From a virus, in IMG/VR virus record IMGVR_UViG_3300023179_000620, positions 1 through 20,308 of that record: DNA of 20,308 nt, one strand, 5' to 3'. Below are positions 9,608 to 13,880 of this stretch, piece after piece (the stretch's first letter is position 1; every line of letters starts with the position of its first letter). The notes beneath the pieces were generated by a model. It did no database searches. It saw nothing but the letters and a program-made list of their open reading frames with translations, and was not told the DNA's origin. The position numbers were made by a program, and so were the translations under genes.

Positions 9608-10006
9608 TCACTCACTTTTGATCGAATAAGGGAGCCATTTCGGTTTTAATTTTCGTGCTTCAAGGTTGTACATTATGTTTCTTGAGCCAAGGGGGTTCAC
9701 GCTATGAACAATCACTTCGAGTGGTAATTTATGATCAGGTAAATCAAAGATTCTTTCTGATGCATGGTAACCCGTGAAGTACCGTACCTTGCCCCAACCG
9801 TCAACATACGTTTCACATCCTTCGTGATCCCCCAGATCATGGTCAAGATGGATCAAATCCCAAGGAGATCCACTCTTAAGACAGGAGATGAATTCTGAAT
9901 ACGTGTAAGCATGGGTGATCTCATGGCCCTCGTAGGCGACACTAAAGTGATCATGACGAACCTTTTCGTCATCGAGAATCAAGATTCGCAAGAGATTACT
10001 CCCCAT
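9608..10006 (-). CDS. Cyclic-phosphate-processing receiver (cREC) type protein
   Basis: 132 residues with the receiver-like fold of the family called cyclic-phosphate processing receiver domain: LILDDE (~9-14), HLDHDLGDHEG (~53-63), then VIVHSVNPLGSRNIMYNL (~98-115). The conserved Asp/His/Asn residues replace the usual phospho-acceptor chemistry, and the family has been predicted computationally to act on nucleotide or RNA cyclic phosphates; I know of no firm biochemical proof. It overlaps the deaminase gene by 28 bp and is followed 3 nt later by the membrane protein. In a phage with tRNAs, a role in RNA-end repair is a reasonable guess. Confidence 0.7.
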   Translation of the reverse strand: MGSNLLRILILDDEKVRHDHFSVAYEGHEITHAYTYSEFISCLKSGSPWDLIHLDHDLGDHEGCETYVDGWGKVRYFTGYHASERIFDLPDHKLPLEVIVHSVNPLGSRNIMYNLEARKLKPKWLPYSIKSE

Positions 10007-10341
10007 TCGTTAGGTCCGATGGTGTAAACAATGCGGGAAACACCTGCGATTCGAAGCTTTCTTTCACACCCTACGCAGGGTTTTGCCATTGCCCAGGATC
10101 CATCTTTTCGGGCTACTCGTGCAACCCAAACAGTCGATCCTGGTGTGAGCTTCCGGGCAAGGCGTGCTTCTGCGTGGTGCCGTCCTTCGAGGGTGGCATT
10201 AGGAGCCGGGATGTTTCTCGAGGAAACAAACACGCCATCGGCTCGAAGCCCTATCGTTCCAAGAAGAAAAGTTCGAGCATCCTTGCTGCTACGGATTGCG
10301 GCAGCGGCTGCTTCAGCTAACATCTTTTTGTCGGAAGCCAT
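9979..10341 (-). CDS. Zinc-dependent cytidine/deoxycytidylate deaminase-like protein
   Basis: 120 residues. Zinc-site motifs of the deaminase superfamily are visible: HAE (56-58, with the catalytic Glu) and PCVGC (88-92). Small size and order fit CDD/CMP-deaminase-like proteins; nucleotide, nucleoside or RNA substrate cannot be decided. Expected reaction: hydrolytic deamination of a cytosine (or adenine) base. It is the first gene of a long unit that continues through cREC and sigma. The ATG at 10341 is 12 nt after the -10 element of promoter P4, with only a weak GAGAG as ribosome-binding site. Confidence 0.8.
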   Translation of the reverse strand: MASDKKMLAEAAAAAIRSSKDARTFLLGTIGLRADGVFVSSRNIPAPNATLEGRHHAEARLARKLTPGSTVWVARVARKDGSWAMAKPCVGCERKLRIAGVSRIVYTIGPNEWGVISCES

Positions 10342-11209: not shown

Positions 11210-11404
11210 TCACTTCTTCGATGAGCTGTAGTTATCTGCGGCCCATCCGTCGCCCTTCAACACAAAAGATCCTCCACCTGAGATGAGGCGGTTGTAGCAT
11301 TCAATCTTGCACTGTGGACAAGGTGTGTGAGGATCATCCTTGATGGACTGGATCGTCTCAAAATCGTGATCGCAAACTAAGCACTTATAATCGTAAGTTG
11401 GCAT
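11210..11404 (-). CDS. FmdB-type zinc-ribbon protein
   Basis: 64 residues beginning MPTYDYKCLVCDHDFE with a second pair CPQC, giving a four-cysteine zinc ribbon, then LISGGGSFVLKGDGWAADNYSS. This matches the FmdB/putative regulatory zinc-ribbon family, common in bacteria and some phages; its biochemical role is not established. The ATG at 11404 is preferred over an upstream GTG/ATG extension because the protein then begins exactly like family members. Its start lies inside the 3' end of the upstream endonuclease gene (28-bp overlap), where a consensus-like sigma70 promoter also lies. Confidence 0.8.
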   Translation of the reverse strand: MPTYDYKCLVCDHDFETIQSIKDDPHTPCPQCKIECYNRLISGGGSFVLKGDGWAADNYSSSKK

Positions 11405-12123
11405 GGCTTTTCTATTATAGCAGTAGATCGTATTTCTTTCAAACAATTTCTGTAGAATGGAACACCTACATCCTTCTCAGTAATCCACAAATAGCTGAAT
11501 CCCTTAGAAGACATTTCTTTCAGAGCAGCTAATTTTTCTTCTTGAGTTGAAAGATATGTTTTCCATTTACCAGAAAGTTTTTCTCCAACGTAAGGCGTTG
11601 TGTACTTGACTTCAACTATTATCTTATCATCAATGATAAAATCCGGTTGATATTTTCTACCACTTGACGTAACAATATGACCTCTGAATCTTTCAATTTT
11701 CGATTCAGGATTGTCCTGAAAATACTTTTTTAGAAAAGCATATTCAAGTGCAGAATCACATCGGATTCCTCTATGTTCTGTCTTTATTCCGTAACCAACA
11801 TTTCCTTTTTCAATTTCTCGAATTCTTGCAATTCGTAACTTCTCTTTTACTGCATCGTTAGAATTGCTAGCAAGAACTGCACAATGGTGACTGCAATATT
11901 TTTTGCTTGTTTTAACAGTTGAAAACTCATTACTGCACTTCAAGCAATTTTTGACAAGAAGAGTTCTTGTCCTCAGTCTTCCTTTCAAGGAATTGCTTAT
12001 CTTTTCGTTTTTAGAACTTTTCTTGCATGTAGAAGAAAAAGTTTTTGAACATTTTAGACCGCAGAATCTGCCTGAACCATAAGTTCCATCATGGGACGAA
12101 TTACAAATTTCACAATTTTGCAT
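11377..12123 (-). CDS. PD-(D/E)XK homing-type endonuclease with two zinc modules
   Basis: 248 residues. The N-terminus has two zinc-binding modules: C4/C7/C21/C25 (CEIC ... FCGLKC) and C60/C63/C77/C81 (CLKC ... YCSHHC), a layout I associate with free-standing phage homing endonucleases. The nuclease core follows: Glu ~127 in SALEYAF, PD at ~160-161 (YQPDFII) and EVK (~171-173). It would make a double-strand break in an intron- or gene-less relative, spreading itself by recombination. It sits between the zinc-ribbon gene and tRNA-Lys, and its end overlaps the former's promoter and start, as expected for an invading gene that preserved its neighbour's expression. The region is A+T-rich. Confidence 0.75.
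   Translation of the reverse strand: MQNCEICNSSHDGTYGSGRFCGLKCSKTFSSTCKKSSKNEKISNSLKGRLRTRTLLVKNCLKCSNEFSTVKTSKKYCSHHCAVLASNSNDAVKEKLRIARIREIEKGNVGYGIKTEHRGIRCDSALEYAFLKKYFQDNPESKIERFRGHIVTSSGRKYQPDFIIDDKIIVEVKYTTPYVGEKLSGKWKTYLSTQEEKLAALKEMSSKGFSYLWITEKDVGVPFYRNCLKEIRSTAIIEKPCQLTIISA
11414..11442 (-). promoter_or_regulatory. Consensus-like host sigma70 promoter for the zinc-ribbon gene
   Basis: On the minus strand TTGAAA, 17 nt, then TATAAT, with the ATG 9 nt further on. Unlike the other promoters here, the -35 is host-like. It lies within the coding sequence of the neighbouring endonuclease. Coordinates are good to about 1 nt. Confidence 0.65.
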
Positions 12124-12174
12124 GTGAATAACTATTTGTTCGATCCTAAAACTTACAGATTATTTACAACGTCG

Positions 12175-12246
12175 TGGAACACCTGAGAGTTGAACTCAGT
12201 TCAAGAGGTTAAAAGCCAATTGCATCACCGCTAATGCTTGTGTTCC
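12175..12246 (-). tRNA. tRNA-Lys (UUU), with degenerate anticodon stem
   Basis: A 72-nt cloverleaf: acceptor GGAACAC / GTGTTCC (7 bp), D stem GCAT / ATGC with GG in the loop, anticodon loop CTTTTAA (UUU), and T arm CTGAG-TTCAACT-CTCAG. The anticodon stem is ATTGG / CCTCT: only the first and the last two pairs match, the two in the middle do not. CCA is not encoded. It may be functional but poorly folded, or decaying. Confidence 0.75.
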
Positions 12247-12370: not shown

Positions 12371-12372
12371 TG

Positions 12373-12459
12373 CGGAGAGAGAGGGATTCGAACCCCCGGT
12401 GCCCTTCCGAGCACGGCTGATTTCAAATCAGCTGCCTTAAACCACTCGGCCATCTCTCC
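12373..12459 (-). tRNA. tRNA-Ser (UGA)
   Basis: An 87-nt class II tRNA: acceptor GGAGAGA / TCTCTCC, D arm with GGCCGAGTGGTTTAAGGC, anticodon stem GCTGA / TCAGC around loop TTTGAAA (anticodon UGA), a long variable arm (CGTGCTCGGAAGGGCACC) and T arm GGGGG-TTCGAAT-CCCTC-like. Discriminator G, followed by CAA rather than CCA. Confidence 0.93.
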
Positions 12460-12727: not shown

Positions 12728-12993
12728 CTCCGACTCCAGGGCTCGAACCTGGGACCCGAGAGTTACTTTACCACTACAATTTTCATTGCTCTTTCGATTT
12801 GTGGTCTGGACTATCCCATCATCCGTTCTGGATGGACCCATTATAGTCTCTGCACCTTCCCTTTAGGGCTTGGCTCAGGGTTGCCATATCTTTTGATGAA
12901 GGGTTCCCTGAAGTTCGGGTCTTTTACATTGAGTATTCCTACTCAACGCTGCCTTTGACAGCTCTCTGCTACTACCTACTGAGCTAAGTCGGA
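12728..12993 (-). tRNA. tRNA-Asn (GUU) interrupted by a group I intron
   Basis: 5' exon 12958-12993, intron 12766-12957, 3' exon 12728-12765. The joined exons give acceptor TCCGACT / AGTCGGA, D stem GCTC / TAGC, anticodon stem GAGAG / CTCTC with loop CTGTTAA (anticodon GUU), variable loop GGGTC and T arm CCAGG-TTCGAGC-CCTGG; discriminator G. Without removing 192 nt the anticodon loop cannot form. The intron sits between anticodon positions 35 and 36. CCA is not encoded. The upstream endonuclease gene's stop codon lies within the 5' end of this tRNA. Confidence 0.9.
12766..12957 (-). ncRNA. Group I self-splicing intron (IC3-like), 192 nt, in tRNA-Asn
   Basis: Minus-strand RNA. The 5' exon ends in U, paired to G in P1 (exon GCUGU with intron GCAGC, loop CAAAG). 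P2 is UUGAGUA-GGAA-UACUCAA. Core Q/P4 region: GGCAACCCUGAGCCAAGCC (12885-12867). P6/R/P7: GGGAAGGUGCAGAGACUA (12861-12844). P8: CAUCC-AGAAC-GGAUG. S/P7': GGGAUAGUCC (12817-12808). It ends in G (omega G). The core wording is nearly that of the cyanobacterial tRNA-Leu IC3 intron as I remember it, but P6 is reduced to a tiny hairpin. It holds no open reading frame of its own. Confidence 0.92.
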
Positions 12994-13652
12994 ATATGTT
13001 TTAATTCACGAACTGATTCTACATTAAGTATACCAAGTTGTACAAGATCTTTTCCTTCTAAGATTTTTAATTTTAACGGGAATTGAGACCACTTTGCTTC
13101 ATCTTTTGGTGTTCTGTATCCTTTGACTTCCACATAAACACCTTCTTCTTCAAGAAAGAAGTCAGGCGTGTAGTAAGAATCTTTTTCATTGAACCTGTAT
13201 TTAAACTTCTCTGTAGGTCTTCTCCACTTTATTCCAAGTTGATCAAGGTACATTGCATACTTGACCTCCCACATACCATGAAGCTTTACGCCATTGTATT
13301 CATGTGATCTTGATTTTGAGAAAGAGAGGTGCCAAGTTCCTTCTTCGACTTTCCTTAAAGTCGTTTCAGACAGCTTTTGACGAGTTTCTTGAGAAAGAGG
13401 TTTCCCTCTTTTTGCATCAGAAATTTTCTTATTAGTAATCTCAGACAAAGGATTGTTTGGGCATTTTGTCAAATGCCCACCTAGTTGCAACGGACTAAAT
13501 CCTGATTTACCACAATAACGGCACACACCATTATTCGACGGCCTTCTCCTTCTTGGACCTCTCCCATCGCACCAGGAAATGTGTCTTTCATAGCCGCCTG
13601 GGTGGATCTGAAACTTACACTTAGGACACTCTTTTGTTGGCATAGCTTTCAT
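12984..13652 (-). CDS. PD-(D/E)XK homing-type endonuclease with NUMOD3-like motif
   Basis: 222 residues. The N-terminus has two C-C-H-C zinc modules (C9, C12, H24, C28 and C44, C47, H60, C64), then a NUMOD3-like DNA-binding stretch (ISDAKRGKPLSQETRQKLS, ~78-96). The nuclease core is Glu ~129 (GMWEVKYAMYL), PD ~163-164 (YYTPDFFL) and EVK ~175-177, followed by KW and KLKIL. Its stop codon falls within the first 10 bp of the intron-bearing tRNA-Asn, so the gene abuts the tRNA without disrupting it. It is a candidate for moving the intron in trans. The start may be three codons later (ATG 13643); neither has a clear Shine-Dalgarno sequence. Confidence 0.75.
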   Translation of the reverse strand: MKAMPTKECPKCKFQIHPGGYERHISWCDGRGPRRRRPSNNGVCRYCGKSGFSPLQLGGHLTKCPNNPLSEITNKKISDAKRGKPLSQETRQKLSETTLRKVEEGTWHLSFSKSRSHEYNGVKLHGMWEVKYAMYLDQLGIKWRRPTEKFKYRFNEKDSYYTPDFFLEEEGVYVEVKGYRTPKDEAKWSQFPLKLKILEGKDLVQLGILNVESVRELKHIPT

Positions 13653-13697: not shown

Positions 13698-13880
13698 TCA
13701 ACTCTCATCTATATGGAAGCCAATTTGTTTCTTCGCACCTGGCGTTTCACGCAGTTCATCGATCGCGTGGATCACGCCGATCACTGCGGCACCAAGTTTA
13801 AGGAATGAAACTGTGCGAGGTGATGTCAGGACGGACCAGATGGTCTTCTTCATCCTCGAGATTTCCTTCATGTTGACCAT
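13698..13880 (-). CDS. Small membrane-associated protein, 60 aa
   Basis: No family recognised. The basic N-terminus (MVNMKEISRMKK) is followed by a hydrophobic segment (VSFLKLGAAVIGVIHAI) that may span or associate with the membrane, then a polar tail. It stands alone: promoter P5 lies directly upstream and the next gene downstream is the endonuclease. The ATG is 6 nt after the -10 element, with no Shine-Dalgarno sequence, so leaderless expression is predicted. Confidence 0.6.
   Translation of the reverse strand: MVNMKEISRMKKTIWSVLTSPRTVSFLKLGAAVIGVIHAIDELRETPGAKKQIGFHIDES

Follow-up and report, generated by a model that had tools for sequence, protein, structure and literature searches.

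A group I intron in the anticodon of a phage tRNA-Asn gene and its candidate endonuclease partner

A 2014 review noted that the phage introns reported to that date all lay in protein-coding genes, despite the many tRNA genes that phages carry (PMC3984707). The window, the whole 20,308-nt stretch of viral DNA analysed here, contains a tRNA-Asn gene that is split inside its anticodon by a group I intron. The locus raises the question of whether this insert is a working intron, and of how an intron that encodes no endonuclease could have reached, and perhaps moved into, such a site. We consider it probable (roughly 0.75) that the intron splices and that, with the endonuclease gene immediately upstream, it takes part in collaborative homing at tRNA-Asn, the endonuclease having been linked to the tRNA gene first.

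The interrupted tRNA-Asn gene and its intron

A group I intron of 192 nt (12957-12766) separates anticodon positions 35 and 36 of the tRNA-Asn(GUU) gene (12993-12728, minus strand). The gene and its neighbours are arranged as follows.

12958..12993, minus: 5′ exon of tRNA-Asn, ending ...GAGAGCUGU (G34 U35)
12766..12957, minus: intron, 192 nt, running from C to omega-G (12766); no internal ORF
12728..12765, minus: 3′ exon of tRNA-Asn, beginning U36 A37 A38; G73 discriminator; CCA not encoded
12372..12459, minus: tRNA-Ser(UGA), uninterrupted, in the tRNA-Asn cluster
12174..12246, minus: tRNA-Lys(UUU), uninterrupted, in the tRNA-Asn cluster

ARAGORN with default settings called no interrupted tRNA at 12993-12728 (minus). 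Excision of exactly 12766-12957 in silico yields a 74-nt tRNA-Asn(GTT) with a GUU anticodon, G73 and a cloverleaf, bearing out the insertion point and intron extent proposed in the sequence-only reading. That reading also had the exons joining perfectly, which is not quite the case: the acceptor, anticodon and T stems are intact, and the D-stem (12968-12984) has a single C-U mismatch (C13-U22), with a loop one base longer than in the close relatives L047, L034 and L103, whose D-stems are perfect. Because of this mismatch and the longer D-loop, the window copy of the tRNA may be slightly defective or may carry a sequencing error.

The insert matches the Rfam model RF00028 (Intron_gpI) at 12967-12785 (minus), end to end over model positions 1-253, with 56.9 bits (E 2.8e-12) against a gathering cutoff of 50 bits. 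The covariance model places a group I core, P3-P8 with the guanosine site in P7, within the following helices.

12949..12961, minus: P1, exon CUGU (12961-12958) with intron GCAG (12952-12949); U.G wobble at the 5′ splice site
12928..12947, minus: P2, 8 bp, GGAA loop; two-sided changes in 6/8 pairs
12835..12921, minus: P3, 12921-12917 with 12839-12835, enclosing P4-P5-P6
12855..12873, minus: P6 (12873-12872 with 12856-12855) and P6a, hairpin CCC-UAAA-GGG (12868-12859)
12809..12848, minus: P7, guanosine-binding helix, 12848-12844 GACUA with 12813-12809 UAGUC; P8 inside
12770..12805, minus: P9, 12805-12801 with 12774-12770, bearing a covarying hairpin with a GAAA loop

We drew the anticodon stem and P1 to P9 on an alignment of the eight complete phage introns described below. 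Among the 460 cells of this drawing, 94.8% were paired (82.4% in shuffles), and 27 of the 59 pairs had changed on both sides, against 11.7 in shuffles, none of which reached as high a count (0/500). Sliding the partners by 1-3 columns reduced pairing to 27-41%. All eight sequences share an unvarying P1 and P7, the U.G pair at the 5′ site and the omega-G at the intron end; covariation is seen in P2, P3, the anticodon stem and the P9 hairpin. RNAalifold recovered most of the drawn helices unprompted, and the pre-tRNA folds with z = -4.06 relative to shuffles. The compensatory changes across the eight sequences indicate selection on the intron fold. A convincing P10 was not evident in the intron. 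Chance resemblance to a group I intron is ruled out by the E-value, the covariation and the empty site described below.

Much of the anatomy that had been read from the letters was thus recovered, including the U.G pair in P1, the P2 with its GGAA loop and the terminal G, together with P7. Two descriptions did not survive: P6 had been called nearly eliminated, which is wrong because both P6 and a 3-bp P6a are present, and the intron had been called unusually compact, although its 192 nt lie inside the 186-342 nt range of bacterial introns at the same site. Assignment to subgroup IC3, by what we take to be its definition, is plausible on anatomical grounds: no P5abc, no P7.1/P7.2, a GNRA loop on P2 and a location in a tRNA anticodon loop. 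The same small, ORF-less architecture, with a GNRA-capped P2 and U.G at the splice site and lacking P5abc and P7.1/P7.2, is found in the bacterial IC3 introns of cyanobacterial tRNA-Leu(UAA) and Azoarcus tRNA-Ile(CAU). Those introns are inserted after positions 34 and 36, respectively, whereas the window intron lies in a phage tRNA-Asn(GUU), between 35 and 36, and has a branched P9.

Same-site introns and an empty site

Scanning viral contigs for the exact core AACCCTGAGCCAAGCC, a tRNA-Asn 5′-exon pattern and a core pattern revealed further tRNA introns in L047 (= L002), L034, L103 (= L085), L003 (= L019), L106, L105, L104 and L010. The intron in L104 is cut by the contig end, leaving eight complete introns including that of the window; all eight have the boundaries CUGU|...G|UAA and splice in silico to tRNA-Asn(GTT). 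L233 is an additional phage tRNA-Asn intron, and a broader tRNA-Asn pattern scan of the viral contigs gave no credible new case, the sole match to pass its filters not being intron-like. In an intron tree, six compact phage introns form one clade (99/99.8); a single origin of all eight is neither shown nor rejected (p-AU 0.614). In L010, a contig of 436 kb, an intron-containing tRNA-Asn (1926-2227) and an intronless one (2787-2861) lie close together amid dozens of tRNAs.

Introns at the same site also occur in bacteria. We searched 84,980 bacterial and archaeal genomes with GGTAGAGCANNNNNCTGTN{3,12}GGCAGC and obtained 106 matches; about half hit other genes by chance and were discarded. A tRNA-Asn with a group I-like insert of 186-342 nt at the identical site, and with the same P1, is present in at least 49 bacterial genomes, and six of the nine bacterial loci scanned with Rfam passed RF00028, with up to 96 bits. 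The carriers are mostly Patescibacteria and also include Elusimicrobia, Nitrospirota, Omnitrophota and others; single taxon assignments may be wrong, because most carriers are metagenome bins. Group I introns in the tRNAs of CPR/Patescibacteria have been noted before (PMC8172020). The bacterial introns from our scan share the exact tRNA-Asn site and P1 with the window intron; unlike it, they are chromosomal, no relative of the window endonuclease was found in the bacterial tRNA-Asn intron loci searched, and the compact phage clade is separate from them in the tree. A site common to phages and many bacterial genomes makes tRNA intron exchange between the two testable.

The allele without the intron was found in a close relative. 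The window, 20 kb in length, comes from a large phage. A DNA-ligase search identified relatives on contigs of up to 297,894 bases, and in one of them, L057, the ligase is 92% identical and the contig largely colinear with the window. Its order is a 60-aa gene, an intronless tRNA-Asn(GTT), tRNA-Ser(UGA) and tRNA-Lys(UUU), with neither the intron nor the 222-aa endonuclease gene that in the window sits between the 60-aa gene and tRNA-Asn.

13698..13880, minus: conserved 60-aa gene; in L057 its end lies some tens of nt ahead of tRNA-Asn; it marks the left flank of the insertion

The acceptor stems of the two alleles agree, and the anticodon stem is GAGAG in intron carriers of the window lineage versus ATTCG in L057. 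This difference fits co-conversion of the flanking exon, among other explanations.

With these comparisons, two rival readings can be weighed. If the boundaries are moved by +1 to +3, the spliced product becomes tRNA-Asp(GTC), which is what ARAGORN calls in intron mode (tRNA-Asp(gtc), with the 192-nt intron displaced by 3 nt), so the interrupted gene might be read as tRNA-Asp(GUC), or the splice sites placed elsewhere. We chose the unshifted boundaries because only there does a U precede the 5′ site and a G end the intron; ARAGORN calls relatives Thr or His, yet every one fits CUGU|..G|UAA and Asn, and the empty site of L057 is itself tRNA-Asn(GTT). On the splice-site rules and the empty site we reject the tRNA-Asp reading, which we regard as highly improbable. 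That the intron or the tRNA is a decaying remnant from which no useful tRNA is made would account for the mismatched D-stem and longer D-loop of the window copy, but we judge this unlikely given the three intact stems, the perfect D-stems of L047, L034 and L103, the invariant P1 and P7 and the selection on the fold suggested by the compensatory changes.

Across the unspliced phage homologues, the labels given by ARAGORN were Asp, Thr, His, Tyr or Asn. This is an annotation hazard: in intron mode the program assigns interrupted tRNA-Asn genes of different phages to Asp, Thr, His or Tyr. Phage tRNA counts may be biased, because interrupted tRNAs are overlooked or wrongly named by a standard tRNA finder.

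The neighbouring endonuclease gene

Directly upstream of the tRNA, and overlapping it, lies an open reading frame.

12984..13652, minus: free-standing endonuclease (predicted), 222 aa; CxxC zinc-finger-like motifs, weak NUMOD3, PD-(D/E)XK core (YTPDF...YVEVKGY)

Its stop codon, TAG, coincides with positions 8-10 of tRNA-Asn (U8-A9-G10); the identical 10-nt overlap with tRNA-Met occurs in Vibrio phage Kuja and Escherichia phage PhaxI. By its motifs, the 222-aa protein is a putative PD-(D/E)XK homing endonuclease: the PD...ExK residues (P163 D164, E175, K177) are invariant in ten homologues, as is CxxC. NUMOD3 and Phage_endo_I matches fall below the Pfam cutoffs, and a profile search of PDB sequences matched T7 endonuclease I weakly (E 7e-4). 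An AlphaFold2 model has a mean pLDDT of 75, with most of the core above 90; because a Foldseek search of this model against the PDB gave no significant match, the predicted fold rests on the motif and the weak profile matches.

At every tRNA-Asn locus of the linkage check, the end of the endonuclease ORF falls in the interval from 17 nt inside the tRNA to 6 nt before it. The ORF adjoins an intronless tRNA-Asn in L004 to L007, and a wider search added five such loci (L220, L222, L223, L225 and L243), eleven relatives directly beside tRNA-Met and, among the weakest matches, mostly genes away from any tRNA. In the endonuclease tree, the tRNA-Asn-linked set stands apart from the tRNA-Met-linked and other copies (81/85), and the intron-linked copies form one clade (96/86) nested among those linked to intronless tRNA-Asn (98/97). 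In two lineages the intron lies beside C-terminal remnants of the endonuclease: a 78-aa ORF in L103/L085 and 68 aa in L233. No relative was detected next to the phage tRNA-Asn introns of L106, L105, L010 and L104, and the partnership is therefore not general.

A second PD-(D/E)XK-like ORF of 248 aa (window 11377-12123, minus) lies just past tRNA-Lys. It is probably another mobile tRNA-linked endonuclease, because L085/L103 have it at 97.6% identity and L057 lacks it.

Collaborative homing and its alternative

From the anatomy and conservation of the intron, we infer the following course of splicing. P1 would pair U35 with G, and an exogenous guanosine bound in P7 would attack after U35; the freed U35 would then attack after the omega-G, joining U35 to U36 and rebuilding the GUU anticodon. 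No endonuclease is encoded in the intron, and the upstream free-standing PD-(D/E)XK protein would serve as its partner, coming from a family that is often tied to tRNA genes, in the window's branch to tRNA-Asn. The endonuclease would cut tRNA-Asn alleles of co-infecting phages that lack both intron and endonuclease, near the anticodon loop, and repair would copy endonuclease and intron together. By splitting the target, the intron would shield its carrier from cutting. The link between endonuclease and tRNA-Asn would predate the joining of the intron.

At this locus, a free-standing endonuclease gene adjoins an ORF-less intron, and both are optional. The two look like co-spreading partners because the endonuclease adjoins tRNA-Asn in related viruses even without an intron. 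Empty sites, endonuclease alone, both together and the intron with a dead endonuclease are all found, as a homing cycle predicts, and the tree orders these states; the locus counts are biased, since either the endonuclease or the intron was the query that led to each locus, and the tree topology is less affected. Whether the pair amounts to a two-part mobile element aimed at the tRNA-Asn anticodon region, in which the endonuclease came first, abutting the tRNA, and then gained the intron at its cut site, is to us an evenly balanced question; if it does, a single phage lineage would capture the route that has been proposed for how ORF-less introns gain mobility.

The intron might instead be genuine and spliced yet passive, vertically inherited or of an ancient bacterial type, beside an endonuclease that is an unrelated tRNA-cluster homing gene and no partner at all. 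Turnover of homing endonuclease genes beside a resident intron (PMC10448857) would be expected to look similar and counts against collaborative homing. Same-site introns are widespread in bacteria, mostly Patescibacteria, with no relative of the endonuclease found at those loci; the gene is missing beside four phage introns, and it also occurs beside intronless tRNA-Asn. Against such independence, the intron-linked endonucleases form one supported clade, as do the compact introns, and both elements are jointly absent from L057. We therefore hold a passive intron to be possible but doubtful, and prefer collaborative homing.

Parts of this arrangement have counterparts elsewhere. I-Ssp6803I, in the Synechocystis tRNA-fMet intron, is a homing endonuclease of the PD-(D/E)XK type that targets the anticodon region of a tRNA; it is encoded inside its intron, whereas the window endonuclease is free-standing and upstream. 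SegB of T4/T6 belongs to the GIY-YIG family, unlike the predicted PD-(D/E)XK protein of the window, and its tRNA has no intron. Like the window gene, SegB is a free-standing phage homing endonuclease tied to tRNA genes, and it cuts inside them (PMC13096335). The tRNA-fMet endonuclease is cited in PMC3984707. The precedent for collaborative homing is F-CphI and the psbA intron of cyanophage S-PM2 (PMC6083498), where likewise an ORF-less intron adjoins a free-standing endonuclease gene that can occur without the intron; here, by contrast, the target is a tRNA gene and the endonuclease a predicted PD-(D/E)XK protein with zinc-finger-like motifs rather than of Endo VII type.

tRNA introns occur in several large phages. 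Klebsiella phage Muenster (L108, MT708547) has, at about 1413-1720, an unannotated CAU-anticodon tRNA with a group I intron after the anticodon (104 bits), and L049 and L238 contain similar CAU-tRNA introns. Phage tRNA introns are undescribed in the open-access literature that we searched; we claim no priority, because subscription papers lay outside that search.

Several further observations arose. Four more Klebsiella phage records match a stretch similar to the Muenster intron tRNA. In L238, near 1932, an endonuclease relative is convergent to the intron-bearing CAU tRNA, a possible second pairing of endonuclease and intron. The marine phage KT997847 (L107) has unannotated group I introns at 734-914 and 1443-1623, in a structural-gene region, and two neighbouring CDS of this phage, each annotated as capsid protein, may belong to a single gene as its exons. 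Finally, at 9608-10341 of the window, an ORF with a cREC_REC domain shares 28 nt with a deaminase-like ORF, near endolysin and sigma-factor genes.
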